DNA of 64,000 bases from Jiulongibacter sediminis (GTDB lineage: Bacteria > Bacteroidota > Bacteroidia > Cytophagales > Spirosomataceae): NCBI RefSeq assembly GCF_001306455.1, contig NZ_LGTQ01000011.1, forward strand, positions 1 to 64,000, written 5' to 3'. This document shows, piece after piece, positions 2,743 through 64,000 of this stretch (position 1 is the stretch's first letter; every line of letters starts with the position of its first letter). The notes beneath the pieces were generated by a model. The model had not been told where the DNA came from. It did not search any database and saw only the letters and a list, made by a program, of their open reading frames with translations. Position numbers and translations under genes: made by a program.

Positions 2743-4523
2743 AGAGGGACAGACAGGGTAAAAACTGACCCTTCACCCGGCCTACTCTGAACCTCTATTT
2801 TACCCCCAAGTTCACCGGCTATTCTATTGACAATATTCAGACCTAAGCCAAAACTGTGTTCACCGGCAGTAGTTTGATTTTTTGTGGTTTTATAGCGATC
2901 AAACAACGTTTTAAGTTCTTCCTGATCAATTCCGGGTCCATGATCTTTTACCTCAAAACATAAAAAATTGTTGTGCTGATAACTTCTCAAAATCACCTCA
3001 GTACCGGTCTCCGAGTATTTAACAGCATTTGACAAAAGGTTTTCCAAAGCTCTGAAAAGCAACGAACGGTCGGTCAGGAGTTCTTCCTGATCTTGCTCTA
3101 CGTGTACTATCAGGTCAATCTTTTTGGTGTCAGCCAAAGGCTTGAAGCGACTGACCAAATCTTTGAAAAGTAGGGCCAAATCTACATTTTCAAGATGTAC
3201 AGGGTGTATTTCATCTTTATCGATGGTTAAAAGTGATTTGATGGTTTTCAAACCAAAATCAGCAGTTTTAAGAATCATATCTTCTGATTCCTTGAGATCC
3301 TTCTTTGAACTTTCTGATAAATTTTGAGCCCAAAGTTTAATCGCTGAAAACGGACTACTCAAATCATGTGAAACAACTGACATCAGGTGATTTTTCTCTG
3401 AATTCAGTTGAGTGAGTTTCTCATTTTGAGATAATATGAGGGCATTTTTCTTCCGGTTTTTTTGATATGCAAAACCAATAATCCCTGCCAACAAGGCCAG
3501 AGCTAACACGCCTATCAGAAGTAATAGTTGTCTGTTTTTCTGGGCCTCAAGCTGAGCTGAAAGAAGCTCATTTTCCTGTTCACGTTCTTTGGCATTATAG
3601 GCCTCCTGCAGCTCAGCAATCTTATCTGCAGTCTGCTCATCGAGCAATTCATTTTGCAATTCATTGCTTTTTAAAAGCTCTTCATAGGCATTTTTGAAAT
3701 CTCCGTTATCGTAATAAAATACAGAGAGATGATTGTGGCTCCGCTCTCTTTGCATTTTAAAATCCAACGAATCAGCCAGCTGCATGGCATTCAGCAGTAC
3801 GTTTTCAGCTTCTACATTTCGGCCAAGGCCATGAAGAGCACCTGCTTTATTGATAAGGTTATACCATAAGTCGGTGGAAGGCTCATTTTTAAGGTATTCC
3901 AGATTATCATTACTGAGTTTAAGGCCTTCTTTGAAATTTTCAAGCCGAACATATAAAGCCGCCAAGTTGATTTTTGAATTGGCTATGCCGGGCAAATCGT
4001 CAATGTCTTCTTTGATTTTGAGCGAACGATTATAAAAGAGAAGAGCCGAGTCTGACTTTTGTTCTTTCAGGTAACATTGCCCCAGATTATTATAAAGTAC
4101 GGCCAGTCTTTTGGGACTAAAGTCCGAGGGCTGATATCTACTCAAAAGCTGCATGATCTGATTTTTGGCCTCCAAATGTTGTCCTGATATCAAATAGGTA
4201 TAAACAAGATCTGAAACAGCAGAGAGCTCATCATCCGGGTTCTCCAGCTCTTTACTGGCCTCAAGAAACTTCAGATAATAATCCAGTGCCTCTGAGCGAT
4301 TATCTTCAAAATCCTGGTAAAACCCTTTCAATCGCAAAGCATAAGCTTCAGCCCGTGGATAGCCTGAAGCTGCCAGTTTTTCAGACCAGTGGGGTATCGA
4401 ATCCTTGTTCGCAATATCCAGATATTTGATCGACAAAATATAGTCATCCCACTCCTTGGGGGTGTTCTGAGCGACAACCTCAAAGAAGCATAGCCAAAGA
4501 AAAAGCAGGCTAATCTTCTTCAT
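2739..4523 (-). CDS. TPR-sensor histidine kinase
   Basis: A 594-residue sensor kinase. It has a signal peptide (residues 1 to about 20, ending VVAQ), about 300 residues of tetratricopeptide repeats (for example LYNNLGQCYLKEQKSDSAL), a coiled coil, one membrane helix at about 331-353, a HisKA domain with phospho-acceptor His386 (VVSHDLSSPF) and a HATPase domain ending in a GLGLNIV box. The signal peptide and single membrane helix place the TPRs outside the cytoplasm, so they probably sense a peptide or protein. The start at 4523 (MKKISLLF) gives a clean signal peptide; a TTG 24 bases upstream does not. It overlaps the upstream response-regulator gene by 14 bases, so the two are co-transcribed and presumably a cognate pair. 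Confidence 0.88.
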   Translation of the reverse strand: MKKISLLFLWLCFFEVVAQNTPKEWDDYILSIKYLDIANKDSIPHWSEKLAASGYPRAEAYALRLKGFYQDFEDNRSEALDYYLKFLEASKELENPDDELSAVSDLVYTYLISGQHLEAKNQIMQLLSRYQPSDFSPKRLAVLYNNLGQCYLKEQKSDSALLFYNRSLKIKEDIDDLPGIANSKINLAALYVRLENFKEGLKLSNDNLEYLKNEPSTDLWYNLINKAGALHGLGRNVEAENVLLNAMQLADSLDFKMQRERSHNHLSVFYYDNGDFKNAYEELLKSNELQNELLDEQTADKIAELQEAYNAKEREQENELLSAQLEAQKNRQLLLLIGVLALALLAGIIGFAYQKNRKKNALILSQNEKLTQLNSEKNHLMSVVSHDLSSPFSAIKLWAQNLSESSKKDLKESEDMILKTADFGLKTIKSLLTIDKDEIHPVHLENVDLALLFKDLVSRFKPLADTKKIDLIVHVEQDQEELLTDRSLLFRALENLLSNAVKYSETGTEVILRSYQHNNFLCFEVKDHGPGIDQEELKTLFDRYKTTKNQTTAGEHSFGLGLNIVNRIAGELGGKIEVQSRPGEGSVFTLSVPL

Positions 4524-5160
4524 GTAAAATTCCGTTTTGCAGAGCAAACTTGACCATACCCACGGTATTGTTCACACCTAGTTTCACTAAGATGTTACGT
4601 CGGTGAGTATCCACGGTTCCTTTACTCAGAAAGAGCTTTTCTCCAATTTCGGACGAACTGTACTCCTGACATACCATTTTCAAAATTTCATATTCCCGCG
4701 GAGAAAGTAGCTCAGGCAGTTTGTTTTGAGGTGTGGTTACCGTATTTGGTCCCGGACCAACCTCCTCTAAATAGATTTCTGGACTAAAATAGGATTCGCC
4801 CCTGGCTACCCTTTCTATCGCCTGTTTTAGCTCCTCTATCGCTGCATCTTTCAGGATATAACCCTGAATCTGGTGTTTTTCTAACCTTCTAAGAATTCGG
4901 GTTCCTCTGAACATCGTCAGATACAAAATCGGAAGTTCAGAACGTAGCTTCCTGATTTCCATCAGCAGTTCTTCCGGGTGAAAATCCGGCAACTGGATGT
5001 CAAGCAATAAAACATCAATAGATAGATCGGGTAGTGATCTGAGAAGCGAATGCCCGTCCACAAACGACCCGGCAACCTCCAGATCAGAGGCAGCTGCAAG
5101 CAACTTCTCCAGCCCCCGGAGAAAGATTTCATGATCGTCGGTAATCGCTAGCTTATACAC
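4510..5160 (-). CDS. LuxR/NarL-type response regulator
   Basis: A 216-residue two-domain response regulator. The receiver domain (residues 1-120) has the acidic pair TDDH at 8-10 and the phosphorylation site Asp54 in LLLDIQLP. The C-terminal LuxR-type helix-turn-helix (about 150-212) has LSPREYEILKMVCQ and the recognition region SKGTVDTHRRNI. It is the first gene of a two-gene operon with the TPR kinase. It is divergent from the head-repeat surface protein at 5382, from which a 221-bp region separates it; this suggests, but does not prove, that the pair controls that surface protein. Confidence 0.9.
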   Translation of the reverse strand: MYKLAITDDHEIFLRGLEKLLAAASDLEVAGSFVDGHSLLRSLPDLSIDVLLLDIQLPDFHPEELLMEIRKLRSELPILYLTMFRGTRILRRLEKHQIQGYILKDAAIEELKQAIERVARGESYFSPEIYLEEVGPGPNTVTTPQNKLPELLSPREYEILKMVCQEYSSSEIGEKLFLSKGTVDTHRRNILVKLGVNNTVGMVKFALQNGILHEED

Positions 5161-5381
5161 CCAGTGTTTTTTCTGATTCTATTAAACTGTTATCTAATGT
5201 ATAGAAAAAGGAATGGACATAAAAACGTATACACTTGACCGATCAGAAAGGTGAACAAATTCTATTTCCTCTTCAAATGAATAAGAACTTCTCCTTAATG
5301 CTGTTCACGAAAAACCGTAAAATAAAACCCTCTGGACTTTTCCGGTATCCGTCCCGTATATTGGGGCAAAACCGTTTTTGA

Positions 5382-7103
5382 ATGCATAGAATTTTACTCC
5401 TGATTTTTATTATTACTCCTTTATTGTCTAATGCTCAAAGCACAGAAATAAAACCTGGTGTTGTGCTTCCAGAAATGACCACAGCTCAGCGGACCGGAAT
5501 GGCCAACCCCACCAATGGTATGCTTGTTTTTGATTCAGATACCCAGAGTTACTGGTTCAGACAATCAGGGAATTGGGTGGAACTACCCAAAGGGGGAAGT
5601 ACCTCAAATTACTGGCAACTTGATGGTCTTGGTGGAAATGAAATTAGAAATACGAACAGTGGGGGATTTTGGAGTGAGAACCAAACCGGTCTAAACATTA
5701 ATTCAAACGATACCAGTAATCCACCGACTGCTCCTGTCAATGGTGACGGAACTCGGTTGATGTGGATTCCTTCAAGATCAGCATTTCGAGTAGGAACAGT
5801 AACCAATGGAAATAAATCATGGGATGCTGATTCTATTGGTCTTTTTTCTTTTGCCTCAGGCTATGGTTCGAAAGCAAAAGGGCGACATTCTATCGCTATG
5901 GGTTACTATAATCTTGCTTCAGCGTATTACTCAACAGCTTTTGGTCATTTTAGTAAAGCAACCGGACACAACTCTGTAGCCTTAGGTTACAGAACTTCGG
6001 CTTCTGAAAAGTACACAACATCAATGGGCTCTGAAACTCAGGCATCAGGTGAATATTCAACGGCAATGGGACTTGAGACAATTGCATCTGGGGATAGATC
6101 AATAGCAATGGGAGACAAATCTTTAGCCTCAGGTTATCGGTCTACGGCGACCGGCTATAGCACCACGGCCTCTGGTGGTATTTCCACTTCTTTCGGCTCT
6201 GAATCGATTGCTTCAGGGGATAGATCAACAGCAATGGGCTACCAAACTGTAGCGTCAGCTCCATTTTCTACAGCTATGGGAAACCGTTCCACGGCATCTG
6301 GATATAATTCATCAGCTATCGGCGAAAAAACAGTTGCAAAAGCTGTTGGCGGAACATCTTTGGGTTTATGGAATGATGATTCTGATATAGCTGGTTCATA
6401 TCCTGGAGTTAGTTCCGACAGAATTTTCCAAATAGGAAATGGTAATAGTTCTTCACGTTCAAATGCCTTGACAGTGCTTCGAAACGGATATATGGGAACA
6501 ATGAATGTATTGGATCCACAGGCTAATCTGCATTTGAAATATGCGGGTTCAAATAACTGGGATGCCCATTTAAGACTTGAAGCTACCAATGGTGAATATT
6601 CTAATATTGTCTACGACGCGGATGGCCTGAAGTTCAGAACGTTTGGTTCTACAGATGATTTTCACTTCAGAAATTCTCTGAATGATCACATCGCTACCAT
6701 TTATGAGGATGGCGACATGGATATTGACGGAACCCTTTCGCAAAGCTCAGACCGAAGACTAAAGAGAGATATTGTAACGCTGGAAAATTCTTCTCAAAAA
6801 CTGACTCAAGTCAATGGTGTCCATTACTACTGGAAAGACCAGAATAAAGACCAACAACTACAAACAGGTCTTATTGCTCAGGAAGTCCAACGAATTTTCC
6901 CTGAGCTGGTGAATGAAGGTGAAGACGGCTACCTTTCTGTAAATTATATTGGGTTGATTCCACATTTAATTGAGACTTATAAAGATTTATTGTCGGAGAA
7001 TGAATCCTTAAAAAAGAGGGCTTTGATTCAGAAAGAACACAATAAAGAAGTGAATCAAAGACTGGCCAGACTGGAAGCTTTGATTGATCAAGCTGCGAAC
7101 TAA
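5382..7103 (+). CDS. Secreted tail-fibre-like protein: YadA-type head repeats plus S74 self-cleaving chaperone
   Basis: 573 residues. A signal peptide (1-19, SNAQ) is followed by the Bacteroidota N-terminal module (VLPEMTTAQRTGMANPTNGM) that ends in a W-V-E-L strand. From about 155 to 325 there are roughly a dozen 14-residue repeats of the form AMGxxSxASGxxS, as in trimeric adhesin heads. The C-terminus (about 450-573) is a peptidase S74 intramolecular chaperone with the motif SDRRLK. Ser456 and Lys461 have the five-residue spacing of the catalytic dyad in phage endosialidase chaperones, and a coiled coil follows. In that family the chaperone drives trimerisation and then cuts itself off. There is no YadA membrane anchor, so how it is displayed is unknown. 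Probably a trimeric surface fibre. Confidence 0.86.
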   Translation: MHRILLLIFIITPLLSNAQSTEIKPGVVLPEMTTAQRTGMANPTNGMLVFDSDTQSYWFRQSGNWVELPKGGSTSNYWQLDGLGGNEIRNTNSGGFWSENQTGLNINSNDTSNPPTAPVNGDGTRLMWIPSRSAFRVGTVTNGNKSWDADSIGLFSFASGYGSKAKGRHSIAMGYYNLASAYYSTAFGHFSKATGHNSVALGYRTSASEKYTTSMGSETQASGEYSTAMGLETIASGDRSIAMGDKSLASGYRSTATGYSTTASGGISTSFGSESIASGDRSTAMGYQTVASAPFSTAMGNRSTASGYNSSAIGEKTVAKAVGGTSLGLWNDDSDIAGSYPGVSSDRIFQIGNGNSSSRSNALTVLRNGYMGTMNVLDPQANLHLKYAGSNNWDAHLRLEATNGEYSNIVYDADGLKFRTFGSTDDFHFRNSLNDHIATIYEDGDMDIDGTLSQSSDRRLKRDIVTLENSSQKLTQVNGVHYYWKDQNKDQQLQTGLIAQEVQRIFPELVNEGEDGYLSVNYIGLIPHLIETYKDLLSENESLKKRALIQKEHNKEVNQRLARLEALIDQAAN

Positions 7104-7928: not shown

Positions 7929-8135
7929 GGAATTGGTGCATTGATCAAAGTCTCCTTGTTTTCCATCATCAACTCACCTTCAACTTTTTACCTTAAACCT
8001 TTAACCGGGTAACTTAACCCTTTCTTAATACTCAATACTCTAAAAACTCAAAATTGAAAGCTTTTGCTCTAAAATTGAAAGTACATAACTAATTATCAGA
8101 CAGAACTTTGTGGTGTAATCAAAAACGAAAACACC
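7812..8135. other. Intergenic region with kinase remnant, degenerate TTGG-rich tract and promoter
   Basis: This 324-bp gap contains, in order, the degraded AraC 3'-end copy, a tract of degenerate ATTGG/AACCTTT-type words resembling the sequence after the intact kinase gene, and the 21-bp-spaced direct repeat and -7 box that precede the lipoprotein gene at 8136. I see no other gene in it. Confidence 0.6.
8047..8081 (+). promoter_or_regulatory. Direct-repeat operator candidate, 21-bp period
   Basis: Two identical copies of AAAATTGAAAG start at 8050 and 8071, exactly 21 bp apart (two helical turns). A -7-like box GAACTTTG follows at 8103-8110, 21 bases after the second copy. The same arrangement stands before the gene at 13441 and, in reverse orientation, before the gene at 47286. 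The spacing fits a dimeric activator bound to one face of the helix. LytTR proteins are known to bind direct repeats about two turns apart, so one of the orphan LytTR proteins is a candidate (inference). Confidence 0.6.
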
Positions 8136-8609
8136 ATGAAACAAATTAGTTTACTTCTTCTTTCTTCCTTATTGCTTTCCTGCTCAGCAGGTGTCAAAAA
8201 GGATTTTCTGAGCGGCTTAAAAGTCACTAATTCAGGTCTGGCATTTGAGCAGGCATATATGAGCTCAGACGGTAAATCCCTTCAGACAGACCAACTCAAA
8301 ACGGGCCAGAAAGTAACTCTACAACTTACTGGTGTGAAGGGCTTTGAGCTAATCGATGACATGGCTTACCCCGGTGCTACTATTGAAGTCATTGACAAAA
8401 CCGGAGTCAAAGCCATGGAATTGGCCGACCTGTTTTCGTCCTATAATGAAACAGGAGTTAAACCGACAGACGCCCAATACCTCTCCACCGCCCTGACCAT
8501 CGGTAACCCTTTGCTGGTAGGTGAAACCTATACTTTCAAAAGCCATTTCTGGGACAAAAACGGTAGCGGCGAGATCAATGGAGAAATGGAGTTTACGGTG
8601 GTAGAATAA
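8136..8609 (+). CDS. Small lipoprotein, first gene of the 8.1-13.3 kb surface-protein operon
   Basis: 157 residues with a lipoprotein signal (LLLSC, Cys16). The mature protein has an apparently all-beta pattern with phrases such as LKTGQKVTLQLTGVKGF and GETYTFKSHFWDKNGSG, suggesting one or two Ig-like sandwiches. I do not recognise a family. It starts 55 bases downstream of the direct-repeat operator and only 13 bases separate its stop from the next gene, so it leads an operon with the three propeller-like proteins. Confidence 0.6.
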   Translation: MKQISLLLLSSLLLSCSAGVKKDFLSGLKVTNSGLAFEQAYMSSDGKSLQTDQLKTGQKVTLQLTGVKGFELIDDMAYPGATIEVIDKTGVKAMELADLFSSYNETGVKPTDAQYLSTALTIGNPLLVGETYTFKSHFWDKNGSGEINGEMEFTVVE

Positions 8610-8622: not shown

Positions 8623-10218
8623 ATGAAGAAACTTAGCACATTATTAATTCTTCTCTGGCAGATCACGGCAGGACAAAGCCTTACCCTCCTCCCTGGGCAG
8701 ATACAGTTGCCCGTACTTGACTTTGAAACTCTCGAAAATCAAAGCAATCCTGAAGAAGGAACTGTGATTTACCAACCCGCATTAAATTGTTTGGCGTATT
8801 ATAACGGCACCCGTTGGAATTGTATCGGCGAGACCCGGCCCATCTGGAGCTATGTAAGAAATTCACTTGCGATCAAGGTGATCAATGCCACGTCCATGTC
8901 AGAAGTGTATGACATTAAAAACCAGGGGGACTCGGCACTCTTTTCTCTTGTCAAAATCCAGGGGACAGTAAGTGTATTGTCTTCCACCATAAACGCCACA
9001 GCCACATACGATTACCTCCTCATCAGGGCCGACTCTGCTTTAAATCCGGTATGGTATAAAAAGATAAGTTTTACCGGCGAAGACTTTCACCTGAGCCGTA
9101 TTAAACAAAGAGCGAATGGCGATATACTACTCGTAGGTCATTATAAAAACGGGTCTTTGGCTTATAACGGAAGCCAATTGCAATCACATACCGGTAGTCC
9201 CAAAAGCTTTGTAATGGAGGTAAATGCGGTAACTGGCAGCTTGAACTGGCACAGAAAACCAGGCAGTTCTGGCTCCTTTAAAACCTATGACATGGCAGTC
9301 AGAGCAAACGGTGACCTCTTTCTGGTCGGGAGATTTGAGGCCAATGCCCAGGTTCTTGGCTCCACTCTGCCATCAACGGGCGGGGCTTTTGTAATGCTTC
9401 TTAACAATGATGCCACGGCAATTAAGAACACCAAAACATGGCACAGTAATTCCAACTATCTCAAGGCCAGATTTATAGAGGTTAACAACACCTTTGAGTA
9501 CGTCAATGTAGTTTCGGAGTTTACTGACAGTCTTTCGTTTTTTGGGCAAAGCCTTCATACAAATTCACCCTCTGCCATTTTTGTACAAACCTTTTACTAT
9601 TACAATGCAAGTAATCTAATTGCGGGTGGAGTTGCTTATACCCAAGGCGGGCCTACCGATAGTTTGGGAATCACGCGTTTTGAAAGAAATATTTTGATAG
9701 GCGAAGCAAAGGGCAGTCATCTATTTAACAATCCCGGTACCTATATCAACTCCTTTGGCACTCAAATCGACGGAAGTTTTGCTATCGGTACTGCTACTAA
9801 TAACTTATCAGCTTATTTCTATCCCATTGCAAGCACTATAAGTTATCAACGCAATAAAACCAAGATTCACTACGCACACTCAAATAATCTGTTGATTAGT
9901 GGCAGTGCAAATGAATTCCCCTCCCTATTTACTTACCCGAATCCATTTAGCCAGCAATCACAGATTTCATCCCCGATAGAGATTTCCGGCTCAACTGTGC
10001 TGTATTCGATAGGAACCAGAACAAGCACTTTTGAAGCCATCAGCCCGGTATCGGTTCCCAACCGCATTCCCTATTTTACCGAAATGGCCTTCTATTCCGG
10101 AGGGGTATTTTATGGACTCAATTATTTCAACTCATACTGTGAAATAGACGGAATACGGTTCCAGAAACCCCCATCTGCCTTTGCGGAAGCTGTACTTCTC
10201 AATACTAAATACAAATAG
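8623..10218 (+). CDS. Secreted propeller-like repeat protein, copy 1 of 3
   Basis: 531 residues, exported (signal peptide to about residue 18, TAGQ). The N-terminal module has LLPGQIQLPVLDF, then NPEEGTVIY and a pair of Cys around NGTRWNC. The rest is made of repeats of about 45-55 residues like GDLFLVGRFEANAQV, GSPKSFVMEVNA and GSLNW, as in SBBP-type beta-propellers of Bacteroidota surface proteins. There is no recognisable sorting domain at the C-terminus. Two paralogues follow directly (10220 and 11772). Function unknown; likely a surface or extracellular binding protein. Confidence 0.65.
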   Translation: MKKLSTLLILLWQITAGQSLTLLPGQIQLPVLDFETLENQSNPEEGTVIYQPALNCLAYYNGTRWNCIGETRPIWSYVRNSLAIKVINATSMSEVYDIKNQGDSALFSLVKIQGTVSVLSSTINATATYDYLLIRADSALNPVWYKKISFTGEDFHLSRIKQRANGDILLVGHYKNGSLAYNGSQLQSHTGSPKSFVMEVNAVTGSLNWHRKPGSSGSFKTYDMAVRANGDLFLVGRFEANAQVLGSTLPSTGGAFVMLLNNDATAIKNTKTWHSNSNYLKARFIEVNNTFEYVNVVSEFTDSLSFFGQSLHTNSPSAIFVQTFYYYNASNLIAGGVAYTQGGPTDSLGITRFERNILIGEAKGSHLFNNPGTYINSFGTQIDGSFAIGTATNNLSAYFYPIASTISYQRNKTKIHYAHSNNLLISGSANEFPSLFTYPNPFSQQSQISSPIEISGSTVLYSIGTRTSTFEAISPVSVPNRIPYFTEMAFYSGGVFYGLNYFNSYCEIDGIRFQKPPSAFAEAVLLNTKYK

Positions 10219-10219
10219 C

Positions 10220-11785
10220 ATGAATAAGATACTCTACCTACTGCTCTTCATTCTTTCTTTTGGAGGAGGTATTTGTCAAAATATCCAAATGAGTCCGAAT
10301 GGCTTGGTTTTGCCTAAAGTCAATATGAAAACCCTGGAACAAAGCCAGATAGCTCAGGAAGGCATGATGGTTTACGACAGCTGTTTCCACCTTCCCAGGT
10401 TTTACGATGGCAAAAACTGGAGTTTTGGCCGGGGAGAAGCTGATAACCACGAGGTGGTTTCCCGCTTTCTGCAATTCAAAGCCACTTCTGGTCATTCGCT
10501 CTCAGTCGAGGTTTTGAAAAACGATTTTCAAGGCAATATCTATTTCTATGGCCGGAAAGAAGAGGGTACCGTGCAATACGAAAATCTTTCAAAGACTTGC
10601 CCACCAAACAATTATCTGCATACTATCGGTAAACTCGATAAATATGGAAATATGCTCTGGTGGTATTCATTTTTTACCGCACAGGACTTTTGCGTCATTT
10701 ATGATTTGGCGGCCGACTCTCAGGGAAATGTTTTTGCAGTAGGAAGAATAGCCGAGCCTGTTTCTTTTGATGGTTTTACCACGATCAACCCTTCCGGCAA
10801 TTCCATGGGTTTCATTCTCAAAATCAATTCAAGCGGGCAGTATGGCTGGTCAAAATTGATTCAAAACGGACCATTAAGCCAGGTGGAGGTATTTGCCGAT
10901 GACAACCTCATCGTGGGCGGATCATTCTCGGGTAATTTGACTTTTGAGTCGGTCAACCTACAGTCTTCAACACAAACCGCATTTGTTTTCAAAACCGACG
11001 GCAGCGGCACGCCTACCTATAGCAGAACTTTTTCGGCAAGTACTTCTGCAGCCTTGCAGGCCCTCTCTGTAAACCTTTACGACTGGGCCGTGGCGGTCGA
11101 TTTTGAAGGTAATTATCAATTTGGGTTTCAGACTATTCCATCAGACTCTGTCGATATTTTTGTTACTGCATTTGATGTCTCAGACCAAATATCTCTATTT
11201 AAAAAAATAGGGGGATCAGGCATTCAAAATGCACGCCATCTTCTACTTTCTGACTCAAAACTACTTATTGATGGCAGATTTGAAGACAACTTCACCGTCG
11301 ATTCCTACGCGTATCAATTCGGGGTGAATGGCAATTATAGTGGTTTTTTTATCGTTCTTGAAAGAAGCAATGCCACTCTTACAGACCGTCTGGTTATTCA
11401 ACCCGAACAGGAAAATGAAAATGCCTGGTTTTATCATATTGCTCATGATTTTTTCGGCAATTTCTACATATCCTACCGCGTAAATGGTTCTGGTGTACTA
11501 CATACCGTGGACAATTCAGAATTGTATGAAAATATCCCCTCAGGTTATGGCATCCTGAAGTTCAAATTGCCTTTCAACCATCCTATCGAGCCGGTATATC
11601 TAAGAAAAACAGAGCAATTTGTCTGGCCTCAAGGTTTGATAGCCCACGGCTTTTATAAAGGAGCCTTTATGAGCCTTAGCACCAACACCCCCAGCAATTA
11701 TTGGCTCCCGGTAGATGGCTTTGATTTTACTAATCCAAAATATTCGAACTCTTCCTTCATCAGACATTACTATGAAAACTATTGA
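10220..11785 (+). CDS. Secreted propeller-like repeat protein, copy 2 of 3
   Basis: 521 residues when started at the ATG at 10220, one base after the stop of copy 1. This start gives a clean signal peptide (MNKILYLLLFILS, cleavage after GICQ); an earlier in-frame start inside copy 1 does not. The N-terminal module is again LVLPKVNMKTLEQ, EGMMVYD and YDGKNW. The body has repeats such as GNVFAVGRIAEPVSF and NLIVGGSFSGNLTF followed by FVFKTDGSG, matching copies 1 and 3. The near-zero gap suggests translational coupling. Tandem duplication is the simplest origin, but the copies are already very divergent. Confidence 0.65.
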   Translation: MNKILYLLLFILSFGGGICQNIQMSPNGLVLPKVNMKTLEQSQIAQEGMMVYDSCFHLPRFYDGKNWSFGRGEADNHEVVSRFLQFKATSGHSLSVEVLKNDFQGNIYFYGRKEEGTVQYENLSKTCPPNNYLHTIGKLDKYGNMLWWYSFFTAQDFCVIYDLAADSQGNVFAVGRIAEPVSFDGFTTINPSGNSMGFILKINSSGQYGWSKLIQNGPLSQVEVFADDNLIVGGSFSGNLTFESVNLQSSTQTAFVFKTDGSGTPTYSRTFSASTSAALQALSVNLYDWAVAVDFEGNYQFGFQTIPSDSVDIFVTAFDVSDQISLFKKIGGSGIQNARHLLLSDSKLLIDGRFEDNFTVDSYAYQFGVNGNYSGFFIVLERSNATLTDRLVIQPEQENENAWFYHIAHDFFGNFYISYRVNGSGVLHTVDNSELYENIPSGYGILKFKLPFNHPIEPVYLRKTEQFVWPQGLIAHGFYKGAFMSLSTNTPSNYWLPVDGFDFTNPKYSNSSFIRHYYENY

Positions 11786-13331
11786 TTATAAATATTTTAT
11801 AACACTCATTCTTCTGGGAGTATTGTTTGGCAATACCTCCAAAGCACAATTTGCCGAGCTCAATCCGGCACCACCCCAAAACGACATTCACAGCTATTTC
11901 AGGCTGCCGATTTCTAATACATCAGGGACTTTTGAAGAAGGCTCCGCACGGTTCAATCCGGTCAAAAAATGCGTGGAATTTTACGATGGAACTCGCTGGA
12001 ACTGCTCCGAATCACGTGCAATAAATACTAATAAATTGCACGTATCAGAAAGTTTTACCGACGCCAATACTCACCTCAAAAGCATCAGCCTGAGCGATGG
12101 TAAGATTGTGTCCTTCTATATGGCACATACAGGTGACAGCCTTCGTGTTTTCGGTCAAAATCTGAAAATGCTGCACAGCAATACCTCCGTACTTATAGCA
12201 GCCGCTGATGCAGATGGCCACTATCTATGGCATGCTGAAACCTCAATTTATTACCAGGATATCTTCGATATAGAGCCCGATCATGCGGGCAATCTGTTTC
12301 TCTCTTTCATAAGCAATAGTCCATTCTTTTATCAGGGCACTTTGGTGGATTCTTATAGCAACGACAACTGTATAGTCCTCAAAATCAACGGAAACGGGAT
12401 TTTGGCAGGCATTCGGGAAGTGGCTCAAGGTTACTTTCCGCTCGACCTTTGCGTGAGTCAAAACAATAAACTGTATGTCCTCTTCAAATTTACAGGGCCG
12501 TTTGTTTTTGCCGGTACCACCATTCAGCCCACCACAACTTCCAATGTTTTTCTGGCACGCTATAGTTCATCGCTGCTTTTGGAACAGTACGATTTTTTTG
12601 AAAGTACTGACTATCTGTCTGTTAATTCAATAGTTAGCACTCCCGGCTCGCTTTATTTGGGTGGTCAGGTAGGAGGCACTTTAAAAAAAGGAGGAAGTGT
12701 ATTAACTAGCACCGGATTAGGCTTGTATGCTTTTGTTTTGAAGTTAAACGAAAATGCTGCTACGCAATGGATCAAAATTGCAGAGCAGGATCCGGGAGGA
12801 CAGTCTGATTTGAGAAGCCTGGTTTTTCTTGACAATAAGCTTTATGCTCTAATTGGTTGCCCCCATGATTTCGGGTTTAGAAACAGTGCCAACCAGTTAG
12901 TAAACTTTCAGCTTGACGGATATGAATACATGGCTATATTCAGGTTTACGGTCGATGGCTTTGCTGAGGACTATTGTCGTTTCACAGGCAATATTAATTA
13001 TAACCCGTATTTATATGACAACGGTAGTCAACTGGTGGCCGGATCCGGCAATAAGCTTTTCTACCAGTCTGAGGTGATGGGTGCTGGCATCTCGTTTAAC
13101 CACCTCACAATCTCCGCCTTACCCGGAAATCGGCAGATTTATAAAATAAATCCGAATCTGGAGCTGGAAGACCATTGGGTGCTATCGGGAGCTTCCTCCC
13201 CATCAATTTTCCAGTCAGGAGAGGCAGATTTGATGGCCGTTTTCAACTATTCAAATGTTGAAATCAATAAAGCGAAGTTCACTAAACTACTTACTAATCA
13301 GTCAGAAACGTATTATTTCCTACTCAAATGA
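11772..13331 (+). CDS. Secreted propeller-like repeat protein, copy 3 of 3
   Basis: 519 residues from the ATG at 11772, which lies 14 bases inside the end of copy 2. The signal peptide ends near TSKAQ. The N-terminal module has FEEGSARFNPVKKC and FYDGTRWNCSE, sharing the Cys..WNC pair with copy 1. The body holds repeats such as GNLFLSFISNSPFFYQG and NKLYVLFKFTGPFVFAG with FVLKLNENAA. It is the last gene of this tight operon; a 110-bp gap with a new operator and promoter separates it from the FISUMP gene. Confidence 0.65.
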   Translation: MKTIDYKYFITLILLGVLFGNTSKAQFAELNPAPPQNDIHSYFRLPISNTSGTFEEGSARFNPVKKCVEFYDGTRWNCSESRAINTNKLHVSESFTDANTHLKSISLSDGKIVSFYMAHTGDSLRVFGQNLKMLHSNTSVLIAAADADGHYLWHAETSIYYQDIFDIEPDHAGNLFLSFISNSPFFYQGTLVDSYSNDNCIVLKINGNGILAGIREVAQGYFPLDLCVSQNNKLYVLFKFTGPFVFAGTTIQPTTTSNVFLARYSSSLLLEQYDFFESTDYLSVNSIVSTPGSLYLGGQVGGTLKKGGSVLTSTGLGLYAFVLKLNENAATQWIKIAEQDPGGQSDLRSLVFLDNKLYALIGCPHDFGFRNSANQLVNFQLDGYEYMAIFRFTVDGFAEDYCRFTGNINYNPYLYDNGSQLVAGSGNKLFYQSEVMGAGISFNHLTISALPGNRQIYKINPNLELEDHWVLSGASSPSIFQSGEADLMAVFNYSNVEINKAKFTKLLTNQSETYYFLLK

Positions 13332-13350: not shown

Positions 13351-13383
13351 CAAAATTGAGAGCATCTGCCCCAAAATCGAAAG
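13351..13383 (+). promoter_or_regulatory. Direct-repeat operator candidate, 21-bp period, second site
   Basis: AAAATTGAGAG at 13352 and AAAATCGAAAG at 13373 are 21 bp apart. The -7-like box GACCTTTG lies at 13404-13411, 20 bases after the second half-site, almost the same geometry as before the gene at 8136. The flanking bases (CTC/CCGCTC before copy 1) also agree. Confidence 0.58.
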
Positions 13384-13440
13384 CCACTTCTCTTCGTCTT
13401 TTTGACCTTTGACCCATCACTTTTTTAAAAACAATCAATC

Positions 13441-14394
13441 ATGAAAACACTTTTTCTCTCTGCACTCATTTCATTCTCAGCCACTGCCCAGGATATGGAC
13501 GTGGTTGGCTCTCTCAAGGTAGGTCAAATGCCCATCGACAATGCCGCCAATAAAGTTGTAGTACAGAAAGCCGACGGCAAACTTGGCACCCGTGACCTAA
13601 ATTCTCTGGCAGCCGCTCCGGCAGATACCAGCCGCTCTTTAGGATCTGATCTTGATATCTTCAAAACATTCTGTAGCTGCCCGCCTGAAAATATGCCACC
13701 TTCCATGATCAGAAAGCTTCGCGAAAGTGGATATTCAGAGGAAGACCTCAGCTTAATGGGCGTTTCTGAGCAACAGATCAGACGATCAAAACCGGTGGTT
13801 GACGGTGATGGCAATGTGTATGAAGTAATGAAGGTGGTAGTGCAGGAAGTGGGCACTTTTTATGTCCTGAAAGAAAACCTCAAAACCACAAAGTTTAATG
13901 ACGGCACCGTGATTGCAGGAAACCTTCCGGCCTCAGGCTGGGTAAATGCAGCGGCCACTCAAACCCCGGCCTGGGCCTATCCTGAAAACAATGCCGTCAA
14001 CAAAGACAAATACGGCCTATTGTACAATGGGTACGTGCTAACCGAAGGAAAAAACGCCTGTCCGCTTGGCTGGACTCCCGCCAACAATAGTGACCTGATG
14101 AACATCGGAAGTTCAACAGCGGAATATTTCAGAGCGGTAGGTACCGATACCTGGGACTTCCCGAACAGCGGAAATAATTTCTCCGGCCTGAATGTACCCG
14201 GAGCAGGCGGAATAGAAATTGACGGTGACGATGTAGCTTTCCGTATTGCTGCCGTGTTTCATTCTTATCAAGTGAACCCAAGCTCTGGCGATATCATGAG
14301 CACTACTGTCCTTAAGGATAGCGAAACGGTAACACAAAACGATAAACCCAAAGCTTATGGGGGTAGCATAAGATGCGTAAGTATCTCCTGGTAA
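13441..14394 (+). CDS. Secreted FISUMP-domain protein
   Basis: 317 residues. A signal peptide (1-16, ATAQ) leads into a short repeat-free region, a Cys-containing helical segment (CSCPPENMPP, then a YSEEDLSLMGVSEQQI motif at about 90-110) and the Fibrobacter-succinogenes-type major paralogous domain at about 115-317. That domain is recognised by DGNVYEVMKV, FYVLKENLKTTKFNDG, GLLYNGY, CPLGWTPANNSDL and the terminal GGSIRCVS. FISUMP domains occur on secreted and surface proteins; their exact role is unknown. It heads an operon with a LytTR regulator (24-bp gap) and the protein at 14787. Confidence 0.8.
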   Translation: MKTLFLSALISFSATAQDMDVVGSLKVGQMPIDNAANKVVVQKADGKLGTRDLNSLAAAPADTSRSLGSDLDIFKTFCSCPPENMPPSMIRKLRESGYSEEDLSLMGVSEQQIRRSKPVVDGDGNVYEVMKVVVQEVGTFYVLKENLKTTKFNDGTVIAGNLPASGWVNAAATQTPAWAYPENNAVNKDKYGLLYNGYVLTEGKNACPLGWTPANNSDLMNIGSSTAEYFRAVGTDTWDFPNSGNNFSGLNVPGAGGIEIDGDDVAFRIAAVFHSYQVNPSSGDIMSTTVLKDSETVTQNDKPKAYGGSIRCVSISW

Positions 14395-14418: not shown

Positions 14419-14790
14419 ATGAAAACGAATAGTTCAAAATGTTGCTCCCGGAGCCTGAGCCTGTCGAAGGCAAAGGGTTTTGTTCACCTCGGTGGTCGCC
14501 TCCACGAAAATCCCGAAAACATCAGCCTGCTTAAAGCCGACATCAATTACACCCATATCTATTTTACAGATGGTAGCCACAAATTGGTGGCTACCACGCT
14601 CGGAATACTCGAAAAAAGACTTCCAAAGAACTTTTTCAGAGTCAATCGCTCTACTGTTGTGAGTTTAAAAAACATAAGGCCCTCTGAAAACGAGGACCAG
14701 ATTTTCGGTGAAAAAGGAGGAGCCATTAGAATCTCAAGACGCAGAAAAGAGGCCTTCAAAATGCAGTACCAAAAATTCAAACAAGCATGA
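14419..14790 (+). CDS. Orphan LytTR-domain DNA-binding protein
   Basis: 123 residues, consisting almost only of a LytTR domain with no receiver. The core runs from about residue 24: FVHLGGRLHENPENISLLKA, DINYTHIYF, VATTLGILEKRL, FFRVNRSTVVSL and the basic tail ISRRRK. It shares the G-G-R start and the NYT/ATTL blocks with the four other small LytTR proteins in this window. Its first 20 residues are odd: they include SLSLSKAKG encoded by a short dispersed palindromic element. It lies between two secreted-protein genes and overlaps the next gene by four bases (ATGA). It probably regulates this operon or related ones (inference). Confidence 0.85.
   Translation: MKTNSSKCCSRSLSLSKAKGFVHLGGRLHENPENISLLKADINYTHIYFTDGSHKLVATTLGILEKRLPKNFFRVNRSTVVSLKNIRPSENEDQIFGEKGGAIRISRRRKEAFKMQYQKFKQA
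14451..14475. repeat. REP-like palindromic element (GAGCCTGTCGAAGGC) inside the LytTR coding region
   Basis: The sequence GAGCCTGTCGAAGGC, preceded by a second GAGCCTGA, is a known type of short dispersed repeat in many bacterial genomes. Here it sits in frame within the 5' coding part of the LytTR gene and is translated as SLSLSKA. A longer, rearranged relative lies at 61264-61303. The other LytTR paralogues lack these residues, which suggests an insertion. Confidence 0.55.
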
Positions 14791-22881: not shown

Positions 22882-23030
22882 AGCCAGATTAATTTCAAAT
22901 GAACGGATGCTTCAAGATAAAAACTTCTTGCTGTTGAAACATTATTGGCTCCTTTGAATCTATATTGCTCTTAAAACGTATTCCCATTTCTGAAAGTGCA
23001 CTTCTGTTATTACCACTATTTCTAAGGCCT

Positions 23031-24917: not shown

Positions 24918-25022
24918 AGTTATATTGATGCACACCCCGAAAGCATTTTACTTTGATTTCATTTTCGTGAGATGCATTTCAATATTGAGCAAATTGTATT
25001 CATTCCACTTTTCAAAGCAGCT

Positions 25023-26799: not shown

Positions 26800-26803
26800 A
26801 GCC

Positions 26804-27160
26804 ATGAGAAACTCAAACACACTAAAGAATCCTGAATTCAGAAAGCGACCTTTTGAAATGATTCATGTGGGCAGCAGAACAGAACTGTTACCCTCTGAAA
26901 TCGTATTGATTTCGGCTGACATTAGTTACTCGTATATTCACTTGAATGACGGAAGAAAACTTCTGGTCAGTACCAATATTCAGAAACTTCAGGAACGCCT
27001 GCTGGGAATCAAAGAAATGGTACGGGTGCACCGCTCACACATGATCAATGTGAAGTATCTCAAAACCTTTGATGAGAAACGGGCGGCTTTGAAAAACAAC
27101 CTGAGCTGCCCCATTTCCCGCAGAAAGAAAATCAATTTAGAAAACGCCTTAAACAATTGA
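26804..27160 (+). CDS. Orphan LytTR-domain DNA-binding protein
   Basis: 118 residues. The core has IHVGSRTELLPSEIVLISAD, ISYSYIHL, RKLLVSTNIQKLQERL, MVRVHRSHMINVKYL and the basic end PISRRKKINLENAL. Compared with its paralogues the G-G-R is G-S-R and NYT is SYS, so it is the most diverged of the five. There is no receiver domain. The start at 26804, four bases after the previous stop, is chosen because an earlier start would lie within the fibre gene. Located inside a surface-protein operon, it probably regulates it or a sister operon. Confidence 0.85.
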   Translation: MRNSNTLKNPEFRKRPFEMIHVGSRTELLPSEIVLISADISYSYIHLNDGRKLLVSTNIQKLQERLLGIKEMVRVHRSHMINVKYLKTFDEKRAALKNNLSCPISRRKKINLENALNN

Positions 27161-37280: not shown

Positions 37281-37388
37281 TCAGCAAAACTACCACTGAC
37301 ACAGTTTATTACACCATCTGCTCAAAAGTCCGGTTTCGTACTCTTCCAAACATTAGTTTAGTCATTGACTAATACACATGCCTGGCTA

Positions 37389-47360: not shown

Positions 47361-47395
47361 CTGACAAAAGCGAATGATTGACTGACAAAAACGAA
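47361..47395. promoter_or_regulatory. Direct-repeat operator candidate, 21-bp period, third site
   Basis: CTGACAAAAGCGAA at 47361 and CTGACAAAAACGAA at 47382 are 21 bp apart with one mismatch in 14 bases. The core CAAAAnYGAA resembles the half-sites at 8050 and 13352, but it reads away from the gene it precedes (45487-47286, minus strand). Its distance to the -7 box is comparable with the other two sites. Confidence 0.52.
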
Positions 47396-61175: not shown

Positions 61176-61182
61176 AGTTGGG

Positions 61183-61361: not shown

Positions 61362-61652
61362 CTACAAAACCACCTCCCGTCTTCTGCTAATGGTAAGTTG
61401 CGTTTGATCTTTAAGCAAAAGGGATTTCTCCTCTGTTTTGAGAATAAATTGTTTATTAACCACTGCCTTTCTGTTTGGTCTCACAAAACCATAGGCTTTA
61501 AACCGCTCTTCCAAAACTCCGAGGGTAGTGGCTACAACCGTTTTTCTACCAGAAATAAGGTGTATACGAGTATAGTTAATGTCGGCCTCCAGCCAGGCGA
61601 TTTCTGTAGGATTAAAGGCCATTCTGCCGCCTACATGGATACTTGTTTTCAT
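61362..61652 (-). CDS. Orphan LytTR-domain DNA-binding protein
   Basis: 96 residues from the ATG at 61652 (MKTSIHVGGRMAFNPTEIAW), chosen because its homologue at 35731 starts MKTEIHIGGR. Alternative ATGs lie at 61664 and at 61694, the latter overlapping the preceding stop as TGATG. Core blocks: DINYTRIHL, TVVATTLGVLEERF, FVRPNRKAVVNKQF and the basic end TISRRRE. No receiver. It is the last gene of an operon of two secreted proteins, the same secreted-plus-LytTR arrangement as at 13.4 and 25.8 kb. Confidence 0.85.
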   Translation of the reverse strand: MKTSIHVGGRMAFNPTEIAWLEADINYTRIHLISGRKTVVATTLGVLEERFKAYGFVRPNRKAVVNKQFILKTEEKSLLLKDQTQLTISRRREVVL

Positions 61653-61693
61653 ATTAGTTTGCATTTTACAGTTGATTGAATTCCCGTTGCTCA

Positions 61694-63331
61694 TCAATAG
61701 CCAATAGCCATCCAGTGAACGGCAGGATAATTAACATTGGTGGAGAAAACCTTGGTACCTCCTATCTCAAAAACGGAATTGGTACTGTTTACAATTTTTA
61801 CAGGTACGTTGGATGCGATGTTACTGTAATAGTCTGCCACCGTCGCCGTGATGGAGAGTAGTTTCTCAAAGCTGACCGGAAATTTGACAGTTTTTGTATT
61901 ATTCGATTCATAGGTCACCAGACCCCATTGAATAAGCAATGGCCCCATACGGGCAAAACCATCATTCGACTTCCTACGCTCTTCCAGCCAGTTAGTAGCC
62001 GCCAAAGTACCTTTTACTTCAAGGCTTGTCGCAGGGTTACTCGTTCCTATCCCGACTTTCTGAGCCGGAGCCGGCTCCAGAAACATCCGCTTACCGTCGA
62101 CTTTCCATAGACCTTCCGATATTTTAGCATCCTGTATGACCGGTTTTAAAGCCCTGTAGCTATTGAGGGTATTGTCAATTACAAGCTCCTGGATATCAGA
62201 CAAGAAAGTATTGGTTGTGATATTAATCCCGAGTCCCATATATACCCTTTTCCCTATAGAAAATGCAACACCATCGCCCCTTGACCCTTGGAAATCGTCT
62301 GCGATAATCTCCCAGCTATCCTGCGTATGGTCATATCGCCTGGTGGTTCCAAGGTACTCGTCTATGATGACGCCGTTCCCTGACAGGTTAATTCCGATCG
62401 CAATGACGGAAATATCAGGCACTTGGGAGAGTTGAATCCATTGATTAAGCCTGGGATCATATTTCCAGGCATTGCCCGAAATACCTGTTCCATCTGAATA
62501 ACCACCAAACATAAATCCTTGGTTTCCAGCAGTAAAGCAAGCCATATATCCATACTGTGTGCCTGGGAAGTTAGCTTTTTGGCTCCAGGAGTCATTCTCC
62601 GGGTCATACTCCCACAGGTCCTTGATGCCTGAATTAATCACAAGTGGATTATTAAGCCCGGGTCCCAAATACGCCTTGTTATTGATAACAAAGACGGCAC
62701 CACGAATTCGGCCAGCCCCGGGAAAGCTAGCTTTCTGAGTCCAAAGGTCAGTTTCAGGGTTATATTCCCACAGATCATTGAGGAAGGTAGCACCATTGCG
62801 GCCTCCATACAGGTACCCTTTACCATTTAAAACAAAAGTTTTGGATAAGTTCCGGTTAGCTCCTGGAAATGATGCTATACTCTCCCAGGTATTGTTGATG
62901 GGTTCATATTTTTTGAATTCATTTGCCCCCCCGCTTGAACTTATACCCATCCCCATGTAGGCATATTTTCCTATGGTAAAGGCATTTACACGACTCGAAT
63001 AAGCATTGGGATAATTTGTTTTAAAGAGCCATTTGTTCAAGGTTTGATCGGGACGATCGGGCATTTTGGAATCGCTGTATTCCTCCTGCCCGCAGAGCTT
63101 ACTCCACTGGGAGCCTGTGTACACATCCAGACAAAAATCATCTGTGTTCAGAATCTGCAGGCCTGCTGGTGGGTTGGGGATGGAATCTCTCTTTGCGGTG
63201 CTCATTTGAGGAATCCGTACGCCTTGGGCTGAGCTCTTGAGATCCAGGTAATCTTCTCCGAAGGTGATGGATTGAGCCTTCAGTTCGTGCACTAAAAGCA
63301 AAATGAAAATAATGAAAATGAAATTCTTCAT
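61694..63331 (-). CDS. Secreted Kelch-repeat protein with phage tail-tip-like C-terminus
   Basis: 545 residues from the ATG at 63331 (MKNFIFIIFILLL, signal peptide to ELKAQ); an ATG 18 bases earlier is also possible. The N-terminal module reads GVRIPQMSTAKRDSIPNPPA, then FCLDVYTGSQWSKLCG. Six to seven Kelch-type repeats (about 110-390) follow, e.g. LNDLWEYNPETDLWTQKASF and GKGYLYGG. A KVGIGTSNPATSLEVKG linker leads to a C-terminal domain of about 95 residues with LLIQWG, TVKFPVSF and the end HWMAIGY. It fits the gp53-type tip domain of phage tail fibres. Surface-binding protein (inference). Confidence 0.78.
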   Translation of the reverse strand: MKNFIFIIFILLLVHELKAQSITFGEDYLDLKSSAQGVRIPQMSTAKRDSIPNPPAGLQILNTDDFCLDVYTGSQWSKLCGQEEYSDSKMPDRPDQTLNKWLFKTNYPNAYSSRVNAFTIGKYAYMGMGISSSGGANEFKKYEPINNTWESIASFPGANRNLSKTFVLNGKGYLYGGRNGATFLNDLWEYNPETDLWTQKASFPGAGRIRGAVFVINNKAYLGPGLNNPLVINSGIKDLWEYDPENDSWSQKANFPGTQYGYMACFTAGNQGFMFGGYSDGTGISGNAWKYDPRLNQWIQLSQVPDISVIAIGINLSGNGVIIDEYLGTTRRYDHTQDSWEIIADDFQGSRGDGVAFSIGKRVYMGLGINITTNTFLSDIQELVIDNTLNSYRALKPVIQDAKISEGLWKVDGKRMFLEPAPAQKVGIGTSNPATSLEVKGTLAATNWLEERRKSNDGFARMGPLLIQWGLVTYESNNTKTVKFPVSFEKLLSITATVADYYSNIASNVPVKIVNSTNSVFEIGGTKVFSTNVNYPAVHWMAIGY

Positions 63332-63359
63332 GGTCTTTGGATGGTTCATGATTGATCAA

Positions 63360-64000
63360 TTAAAAACCGATAGCTATCCACCGAACTTTCGAGACACTAT
63401 CTCCGGAAAACACCTCCGTACCGGCAATTAAAAAGCCAACCGGGCCAGGCGAGGCAATTTTGACCGGAACATTGGCTCCTGACCCCGAATTGTCTCCGGA
63501 ATCCACGACGGCCGTAACCACCGGGAGATTTGCGAAGGGGATTGGAAAGAGAATCGTTGTCAGGTTATTATTGGTATAATTAGCAGTGCCCCATTGCATC
63601 AGAATACCGCCCATTCGGGCATAGCCGTTTGGAGCAAGAGACTGCTCATGCCAGGCCTCTATCTTCAGGTCTCCGCTAATCTCAAGACTGGCTTCAGGAT
63701 AAGAAGTTCCGATGCCCATTTTGGAAGATGGATCTACGCTGCTAACTACTCCGCCTTTTCGTTTCCAGGCAAGACCTTCCAGGTCGGTATCCAGAACGGT
63801 GGTAATATTGTTCTCAAAAGTACCGGCTTGAGGCTCTCTGAAACCACAATTTTTTATCCAATGCTGACCATTATAGACATCCAGACAATTATCATCAGCA
63901 TTCATAATTTGCAGACCTGTTGCAGGAGAACCGATGCTGTTTCTAACAACCGTTGTCATGCGGGGGATACGCCATCCCTTATGATCTGCCTCCAGATTCA
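63360..64000 (-). CDS. Secreted tail-fibre-tip-like protein, 5' end outside the window
   Basis: The frame stays open to base 64000: before the ATG at 63959 it reads NLEADHKGWRIPR, so that Met is internal to the N-terminal module (IPRMTTVVRNSIGSPATGLQ) and the real start lies to the right. About 213 residues are visible. CLDVYNGQHWIKNCG ends the module, KMGIGTSYPEASLEISG is the linker, and the C-terminal domain (ILMQWG, TILFPIPF, ANVPVKI, RWIAIGF) is the same tip domain as in the Kelch protein. It ends 28 bases before that gene's preferred start, so they form one operon. Confidence 0.78.
   Translation of the reverse strand, partial: NLEADHKGWRIPRMTTVVRNSIGSPATGLQIMNADDNCLDVYNGQHWIKNCGFREPQAGTFENNITTVLDTDLEGLAWKRKGGVVSSVDPSSKMGIGTSYPEASLEISGDLKIEAWHEQSLAPNGYARMGGILMQWGTANYTNNNLTTILFPIPFANLPVVTAVVDSGDNSGSGANVPVKIASPGPVGFLIAGTEVFSGDSVSKVRWIAIGF

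Follow-up and report, generated by a model that had tools for sequence, protein, structure and literature searches.

Gene Groups of the Window

Many Bacteroidota genomes encode large exported proteins, and also orphan LytTR genes, to which no function is assigned. In Jiulongibacter sediminis the two kinds of gene lie side by side in the stretch of DNA analyzed here, hereafter the window. The source genome (G000) has 4.47 Mb in 30 contigs, and the window covers its contig C3 from the first base to base 64,000 of 65,788. The association of LytTR genes lacking a receiver domain with genes of exported proteins recurs in other genera, and suggests that these LytTR genes are a little-noticed local switch for individual surface proteins. 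A whole-genome PF04397 search detects 42 LytTR domains, about 22 of them without a receiver; five of the 42 are in the window, all above the PF04397 curated cut-off. All five are receiver-less, with open reading frames (ORFs) of 111–146 amino acids (aa), and PF04397 is the sole domain in the four that were scanned with Pfam. Four adjoin the gene of an exported protein on the same strand, while the fifth (32394; genes are named by their first position, Table 1) has no same-strand neighbour within 150 bp and lies beside a two-component system.

The window contains six gene groups. Group 2 (8.1–18.9 kb) consists of the lipoprotein-like 8136, three exported proteins of 531–538 aa that match no Pfam family, a FISUMP protein, a LytTR, a 367-aa protein and a hybrid regulator; group 3 (23.0–31.8 kb) of a TPR kinase, a NarL regulator, an exported protein of 344 aa, a LytTR and two further exported proteins (338 and 1190 aa); group 4 (32.4–42.3 kb) of a LytTR, a NarL regulator, a TPR kinase, a second LytTR, a PF00144 serine hydrolase and two large exported proteins; and group 6 (61.4–64 kb) of a LytTR and exported fibres with a gp53-like C-terminus, one of them with kelch repeats. 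Near group 6, behind a PhyH gene, an OmpR-like kinase/regulator pair was recognized by eye at 58.0–60.1 kb. Group 1 (2.7–7.1 kb; TPR kinase, NarL-type regulator, YadA-head/S74 fibre) and group 5 (45.5–49.5 kb; AraC hybrid, YadA-head/collar fibre) are without LytTR. Group contents come from Pfam for part of the proteins and from inspection of the ORF list by eye for the remainder. Genes were called as the longest ORFs, so some starts are wrong, and a protein was called exported by a hydropathy rule, not by SignalP. A first-pass annotation, made from the letters of the window, had described these groups together with five receiver-less LytTR genes, a description borne out by the ORFs and Pfam with the proviso that two of its listed groups hold no LytTR.

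Receiver-Less LytTR Genes Beside Exported Proteins

The pairing was counted in two sets of loci, with control genes drawn from the same loci as the receiver-less LytTR genes. In the genus set (G000–G002; 20, 17 and 13 LytTR genes counted, respectively, the loci of G001 and G002 being taken from among the matches listed), a same-strand exported neighbour lies within 150 bp of 25 of the 50 receiver-less LytTR genes as against 67 of 274 non-exported controls (P = 5e-4); for exported control genes the figure is 65/163. The downstream gene encodes an exported protein of at least 300 aa for 16/50 LytTR genes and 20/274 non-exported controls (P = 8e-6).

The second set comes from six genomes outside the genus and comprises 42 genes, namely 40 of the 41 profile matches in G041, G028, G029 and G099, to which G053 and G090 add a single locus apiece. 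It was selected by profile score, independently of gene context, and because the profile was built from the LytTR proteins of the source genome it represents relatives of the LytTR lineages of the window. Here an exported same-strand neighbour accompanies 33/42 LytTR genes and 84/237 control genes (P = 3e-7), the exported gene is downstream in 24 cases, and in 18 of these 24 the gap is –4 to 45 bp. Among LytTR proteins with an N-terminal H-x-G-G-like motif the proportion with an exported neighbour is 29/33, vs. 4/9 for the others. In a larger alignment, the arginine of the FhRhHRS motif (PMC4227749) is kept in all 69 rows of exported-linked LytTR proteins. The pairing therefore extends beyond the window. 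The first-pass annotation had set a lack of conserved neighbourhood in relatives as a point that would count against its reading; the neighbourhood is present, and the cassette recurs. No description of receiver-less LytTR genes paired with exported proteins was found in the titles and abstract starts of the open-licence papers that the literature searches listed.

The Partner Proteins

Twenty-six partner or neighbour proteins were scanned, mostly from the 38 exported partners of the six-genome set with cut-off and near-copy proteins mostly omitted. A GCX_COOH (“3-coathanger stack”) domain was found in 12 and Ig_7 in five, with single matches to a subtilase, a PF00144 hydrolase and an S74 model; searching by domain name, no literature was found on the GCX_COOH/3-coathanger domain. 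In whole genomes, with NCBI's GCX model and with “receiver-less” taken as a frame of <200 aa plus the fused gene L016 (see below), an adjacent same-strand GCX gene occurs at 5/22 receiver-less LytTR genes in G000, 13/40 in G041 and 12/28 in G028 (expected 0.29, 0.73 and 0.66), compared with 1/20, 1/16 and 0/19 for the other LytTR proteins. Pooled over the three genomes, this makes 30/90 (about 1.7 expected) vs. 2/55. In these positional counts, as in those for the fibre module below, the length of contig C4 was guessed and minor contigs were pooled. A further count, in which 10 of the 22 LytTR genes of G000 have a GCX gene within 5 kb, was not relied on, being biased by a profile (A4) whose rows were picked from LytTR neighbourhoods; the 1190-aa protein 28187, GCX-like by that profile, is not among the NF045639 (NCBIfam) matches. 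Pairing of LytTR genes with exported proteins, and with GCX proteins, is thus above chance.

Exported proteins of other kinds behave differently. Proteins with the tail domain of the type IX secretion system (T9SS; Por_Secre_tail, TIGR04183) give 37 matches in G000, none of them on contig C3, and lie within 5 kb of only one of the 22 receiver-less LytTR genes. The N-terminal fibre module has 18 matches in G000, eight on C3 and three on contig C17, and may be under-counted elsewhere because its profile (A5) was made from C3 proteins only. It occurs within 5 kb of 2/22 receiver-less LytTR genes, both on C3 (0.51 expected, P = 0.09), and, with the same C3-derived profile, within 10 kb of none of the 17 outside C3. 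A fibre-specific LytTR link was rejected on this last count, and with it the phage-fibre-like protein that the first-pass annotation had made the defining partner. Since the module is clustered on C3 and unlinked to LytTR elsewhere, the window is unusual in its fibres, not in its LytTR pairing.

Against PHROGs, eight exported proteins match tail, baseplate, head/decoration or unknown families, or nothing. A prophage tail fibre would be expected to adjoin virion or packaging genes; the window fibres sit among regulators and metabolic genes, and have signal-peptide-like starts. The last 23 bp of C17 (L113, 3149 bp) match exactly the beginning of the fibre operon at the end of C3 (61694–64000, reverse strand), and the start of C17 carries a 61-bp copy, 90% identical, of the 5′ part of a fibre gene. 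The end of C3 and C17 probably belong to one extended array of related fibre genes that was split in assembly. At two other loci (L059:6865-8342, L071:6429-7776) a LytTR gene is followed by two small exported proteins ending in a ‘D.C[VI]KVYNGT.WNCL’ module, which resembles one near the N-terminus of the fibres. In G041, a LytTR gene product (L153:5587-5925) has final residues (FEAEIGGC) like those that close a GCX protein, as would be expected had an internal deletion removed the exported protein.

In-Frame Fusions

In three cases the LytTR is fused in frame to the exported protein: L016:5149-8007 (G000), L054:10616-16855 (G001) and L185:13587-14522 (G053). In the L016 and L054 fusions no ATG, GTG or TTG lies between the end of the LytTR and the hydrophobic core of the signal peptide, although L054 has one GTG within that core; in L185 an ATG is retained. 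The L016 fusion is recent, because its nearest relative (L055, G001) consists of two separate genes 9 bp apart. Any single fusion could be a sequencing error, but the existence of three separate cases argues against this.

Candidate Operators

Direct repeats with a 21-bp period occur upstream of 11/52 LytTR genes and 23/377 controls (P = 1e-3), while each of the other spacings from 15 to 33 is present in at most 4/52 LytTR upstream regions (the fused L016 stands among the controls in these counts, and on the LytTR side where 53 regions are compared with 376). TTCG-N17-TTCG is found in 8/53 LytTR upstream regions vs. 2/376 controls. The strongest motif, TTCGG-N16-TTCGTCCTAG, precedes operons of a LytTR and a giant gene in L148 (twice), L158 (twice) and L160, and forms of it that have a single mismatch or an altered first half occur in L010, L053 and L174, so that it spans four genera; some of these operons, like the fused gene L016, have three half-sites 21 bp apart. 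Among the matches listed, exact TTCGG-N16-TTCGTCCTA sites number three in G028 and one in G099, every one of them upstream of a LytTR-giant operon, and these operons have differing neighbouring regulators. Upstream of the TTCGG operons is an AraC-like protein (by eye) in L148 and L158, a kinase with a LytTR regulator in L010 and L053, and an exported protein in L174. One shared operator as a general rule was rejected, the sole strong motif in the 52 regions being carried mainly by one LytTR clade. Naming operators by footprinting around L016, 26768, 35623 and L012 was given up as well, for the alignments are too loose except at the TTCGG half-sites around L016.

The candidate operators of the window cassettes look like private sites. 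As a 21-bp pair, CAAAATTGARAGC is found in the window only before 8136 and 13441 (single matches are no commoner than chance), and the TTCGYTTTTGTCAG pair only before 47286; the repeat at 13351 is retained in locus L163 of G029, upstream of gene 6740, with diverged flanks. When ≤3 mismatches are allowed, the genome contains just two copies of a 22-bp site, one ahead of the regulator 33122 and the other at 35.7 kb. These copies form an inverted pair (33009/35658; 25 nt, 92%) that brackets a convergent regulator and kinase, and each has the same orientation relative to the gene it precedes. The pair may mark an invertible segment, but a simpler reading is that two genes facing each other have the same site in front of them, as putative twin operators. 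The first-pass annotation had proposed switching between alternative surface fibres; this reading of the inverted pair does not favour it, and no recombinase is found among the 40 window proteins run against Pfam, the other window ORFs and the rest of the genome not having been searched.

Tree of LytTR Domains

A tree was built from 129 receiver-less or fused LytTR domains, which offer few columns and leave many forks unsure. It contains cassette-specific clades that extend across genera: 26768 groups with L052, L070 and L165, all exported-linked; 35623 with L056 and L149; and 14419 with L163. In L149 (G041) the LytTR is followed by a 413-aa protein similar to the serine hydrolase 36087. The tree also holds conserved clades without exported partners.

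Cargo Replacement and Probable Transfer Between Genera

The 367-aa protein 14787 is present in 2 of 200 sampled family genomes, the source genome and G029, which belongs to another genus, and is absent from two genomes of the same genus. Between G000 and G029 the FISUMP protein, the LytTR, the 367-aa protein and the hybrid regulator have 84–90% protein identity; for comparison, the topoisomerase-like protein 52223 (named by eye) is 74% identical to its G029 counterpart and 79–86% to those of the four other genomes compared. The simplest reading is a transfer of the 13.4–18.9 kb block between genera.

In the same frame, G029 carries three other cargo proteins (555, 467 and 457 aa) in place of the three of the window, which are themselves only 20–23% identical to one another. 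Over the matched stretches, the G029 proteins have 49%, 30% and 30% identity to the group 1 fibre 5382, the first value referring to L163:9602-11269. At the edge of the L163 locus, the DNA of the 8136 gene is 83% identical over 8397–8609. By these comparisons the frame of the 8.1–18.9 kb cassette was kept and its cargo replaced, in one case. The alternative cargo of the first-pass annotation is thus real as variation, but as evolutionary replacement. At two further loci in two genera (L148, L158) there are two tandem LytTR-giant pairs each, with closely similar LytTR proteins and operators, which we read as duplications of whole cassettes.

Features of the Window

The coordinates are collected in Table 1. 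For the LytTR 61362 two ATG codons are possible starts, one that shares a base with the stop of the preceding fibre (TGATG) and another some 42 bp farther into the frame. The window (7356-7811), L018:7880-8320 and L171:2626-3084 each encode a small lipoprotein-like product with ‘P[LF][AS]DQ[IV].G.Y’ close to the N-terminus, next to two-component systems that are accompanied by surface proteins.

Table 1. Genes and candidate sites of the six gene groups (window positions).
Feature	Position	Strand	Basis or remark
Exported TPR histidine kinase	2739..4547	-	HATPase_c 1.7e-24, TPR_12 5.5e-14; signal-peptide-like start by eye
NarL/LuxR-type response regulator	4510..5160	-	Response_reg + GerE
Exported YadA-head/S74 fibre, N-terminal fibre module	5382..7103	+	YadA_head 5.3e-38, Peptidase_S74 4.6e-17; phage tail PHROGs
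Direct repeat, 21-bp period, candidate operator upstream of 8136	8049..8082	+	CAAAATTGAAAGC / TAAAATTGAAAGT
Small lipoprotein-like, first gene of cassette	8136..8609	+	ORF
Cargo 1, exported, 531 aa, N-terminal fibre module	8623..10218	+	No Pfam family
Cargo 2, exported, 534 aa, distant paralogue of cargo 1	10181..11785	+	23% identity to cargo 1
Cargo 3, exported, 538 aa, distant paralogue	11715..13331	+	22% / 20% identity to cargo 1 / 2
Direct repeat, 21-bp period, upstream of FISUMP 13441	13351..13384	+	CAAAATTGAGAGC / CAAAATCGAAAGC; conserved in G029
Exported FISUMP protein	13441..14394	+	PF09603 2.3e-12; 89.6% identical in G029
Receiver-less LytTR, HLGGR type	14419..14790	+	PF04397 2.5e-12; 87-89% identical in G029
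Exported 367-aa protein	14787..15890	+	ATG overlaps stop of LytTR 14419 (ATGA)
TPR/HisKA/receiver/AraC hybrid two-component protein	16066..18906	+	Pfam; 84% identical in G029
Exported TPR histidine kinase (HisKA_3)	22965..24917	+	Pfam
NarL-type response regulator	24972..25649	+	Pfam
Exported 344-aa protein	25765..26799	+	Overlaps start of LytTR ORF 26768
Receiver-less LytTR	26768..27160	+	PF04397
Exported 338-aa protein	27165..28181	+	Similar proteins at same place in L052 and L070 (by eye)
Exported 1190-aa protein, GCX-like C-terminus	28187..31759	+	Weak: profile A4 match by construction (own row)
Receiver-less LytTR without same-strand exported neighbour	32394..32747	+	Pfam
Candidate 22-bp private site upstream of regulator 33122, arm 1 of inverted pair	33009..33033	+	
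NarL-type response regulator	33122..33757	+	Pfam
TPR histidine kinase (HisKA_3)	33749..35527	-	Pfam
Receiver-less LytTR, likely start near 35728	35623..36063	+	PF04397 2.9e-16
Same 22-bp site, between kinase and LytTR	35658..35682	-	Second of two genome copies, ≤3 mismatches
Lipoprotein-like PF00144 serine hydrolase	36087..37280	+	Pfam
Exported 973-aa protein	37365..40286	+	No Pfam family
Exported 658-aa protein, G8 domain	40293..42269	+	PF10162 8.7e-06
Exported YadA-head/collar fibre	45487..47286	-	Pfam
Direct repeat TTCGYTTTTGTCAG, 21-bp period, upstream of fibre 45487..47286	47361..47395	-	
HisKA/receiver/AraC hybrid	47407..49461	-	Pfam
Receiver-less LytTR	61362..61697	-	PF04397
Exported kelch fibre, gp53-like C-terminus	61694..63349	-	Pfam
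Exported small fibre, gp53-like C-terminus	63360..64000	-	ORF extends beyond window end; 244-aa ORF in L017

Proposed Mechanism and Alternatives

With moderate confidence, each cassette is interpreted as a modular, self-regulated surface-protein operon, in which a receiver-less LytTR acts locally together with a private two-component system. The observations underlying this explanation are the enriched gene pairing, the fusions in frame, the conservation of repeats and the one cargo replacement. The LytTR protein, a bare DNA-binding domain, would be co-produced with at least one large exported protein, sometimes by translational coupling, and would act on the operon to which it belongs; for at least one large clade its likely site would be the 21-bp-spaced direct repeats about 65–125 bp upstream. 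The start of the operon would be decided by the cassette-private two-component system (a TPR kinase with a NarL- or LytTR-type regulator, or an AraC hybrid), while the LytTR would set or hold the level of expression. From these observations we infer autoregulation by the LytTR, its binding to the repeats and the sign of its effect, and the cargo is presumed to be located at the cell surface. The LytTR lineage, the two-component system and the operator may travel together as a module, with a replaceable cargo, including replacement by transfer between genera.

Several results weigh against so general a picture. The excess of exported neighbours is not significant in G005 and G009 (6/12 vs. 17/58, P = 0.19) and is lacking in five other family genomes (2/23 LytTR vs. 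21/123 controls), half of the LytTR genes of the genus set have no exported neighbour by the hydropathy rule, and 17 of the 22 receiver-less LytTR genes of G000 have no adjacent GCX gene; the pairing is therefore a property of some LytTR lineages. As to the operators, 21 bp is the commonest spacing in the controls too (the 23/377 given above) and is over-represented in intergenic DNA generally, some of the 52 upstream regions are near-copies of one another (L148/L158 supply four of the eleven 21-bp cases), and the TTCGG pattern at ≤2 mismatches, summed over ten genomes, is no commoner than a reversed control. Finally, the 21-bp repeats of the window lie in AraC-hybrid groups, and the one at 47361 is in a group without LytTR, so that the hybrid may be the binder there.

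This last point leads to an alternative, considered unlikely, in which control through the repeats is exerted entirely by AraC hybrids and NarL regulators, and the LytTR acts elsewhere or has a minor role. Besides the repeat at 47361, it is favoured by the 22-bp private site, which stands before both a NarL regulator and the kinase/LytTR pair, and the window sites may indeed be those of such regulators and not of the LytTR. Against it, TTCGG-N16-TTCGTCCTAG is common to LytTR operons with differing upstream neighbours.

We give a similarly low probability to the view that the LytTR genes simply ride along, both kinds of gene being common and their adjacency incidental or inherited from a few ancestral pairs. 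In its favour, an exported neighbour is frequent among control genes too (84/237), and linked genes cluster on the tree, where exported linkage requires 24 label changes vs. 43 in shuffles; there are therefore fewer independent events than rows. Against it, well-supported branches force at least 14 label changes (gains and losses not being distinguished), other LytTR proteins and the T9SS-tail proteins are unlinked, three separate in-frame fusions exist, and the 13.4–18.9 kb block remained intact through an apparent transfer between genera.

A further reading, which appears rather improbable, links the LytTR to the export of the surface protein made with it; the cassettes would then be an export-sensing regulatory class of exchangeable LytTR and secreted-cargo units. 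In the fused forms (LytTR, signal peptide, passenger), signal-peptidase cleavage would leave the LytTR anchored in the membrane, where it would report export back to the operon that encodes it. Where the two genes are unfused but close or overlapping, the small LytTR would do the same by binding the nascent partner or the export machinery.

The single regulon proposed in the first-pass annotation, in which LytTR proteins cross-regulate alternative fibres to give exclusive surface states, is quite doubtful: several LytTR and fibre genes do lie inside 60 kb, and the fibre operon at the end of C3 seems to run on into C17 with related fibre genes, but the candidate operators are private to cassettes, which makes one common regulon unlikely, the LytTR clades are cassette-specific across genera, the fibre modules are unlinked to LytTR outside C3, and the Pfam-run window proteins include no recombinase.

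Relation to Known Systems

The closest described relatives of the modular, self-regulated operons are the LytTR Regulatory Systems (LRS) such as HdrRM and BrsRM, in which, according to the consulted sections of PMC6193735, a receiver-less LytTR is coupled to a membrane inhibitor and uses 9-bp repeats mostly 12 bp apart. The cassettes share with these a receiver-less LytTR in a small operon with a partner, often with the LytTR first. The direct repeats of LRS have a spacing of about 21 bp (9 + 12, with 11–13 bp between the repeats) and stand just upstream of the promoter (PMC6193735); the 21-bp repeats seen in 11/52 LytTR upstream regions vs. 23/377 controls are candidate counterparts. The partner differs: in LRS it is a multi-pass membrane inhibitor (PMC6193735), whereas the exported partner found here has a signal peptide and no more than one additional hydrophobic segment. 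No multi-pass membrane inhibitor lies beside the LytTR genes of the window, where four partners are called exported and the fifth gene lacks a same-strand neighbour within 150 bp; because this defining component is missing, the cassettes are not assigned to LRS. At four loci (L012:7371-8603, L051:4386-5620, L067:5931-7111, L151:5382-6597), from three same-genus genomes and G041, a LytTR gene is directly upstream of the gene of a protein with 6–7 transmembrane-like segments (ORFs 275–337 aa), beside a MOSC-like gene (by eye); these pairs are candidates for a true LRS pair in this family.

LRS-like operons of Bacteroides are likewise from Bacteroidota and have a LytTR with upstream direct repeats, but there, in the same portion of PMC6193735, the LytTR itself has membrane segments and follows an NfeD/DUF2154 membrane protein. 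The fused forms resemble transmembrane transcription regulators, as outlined in the consulted part of PMC10269533, in that a single polypeptide carries both a DNA-binding domain and a segment that crosses the membrane; unlike them, the segment is the signal peptide of a large exported protein, and most copies are unfused. With the GCX_COOH/3-coathanger stack proteins (NF045639) the cassettes share the domain, present in 12/26 partners, while the regulator is not part of that family.

The conserved pairing, in places with private operators, offers a regulator for exported proteins and a testable target for orphan LytTR genes. If the interpretation is correct, surface cargo can be exchanged between genera while remaining under control, and receiver-less LytTR systems extend from pairs with a membrane inhibitor to pairs with a surface protein.

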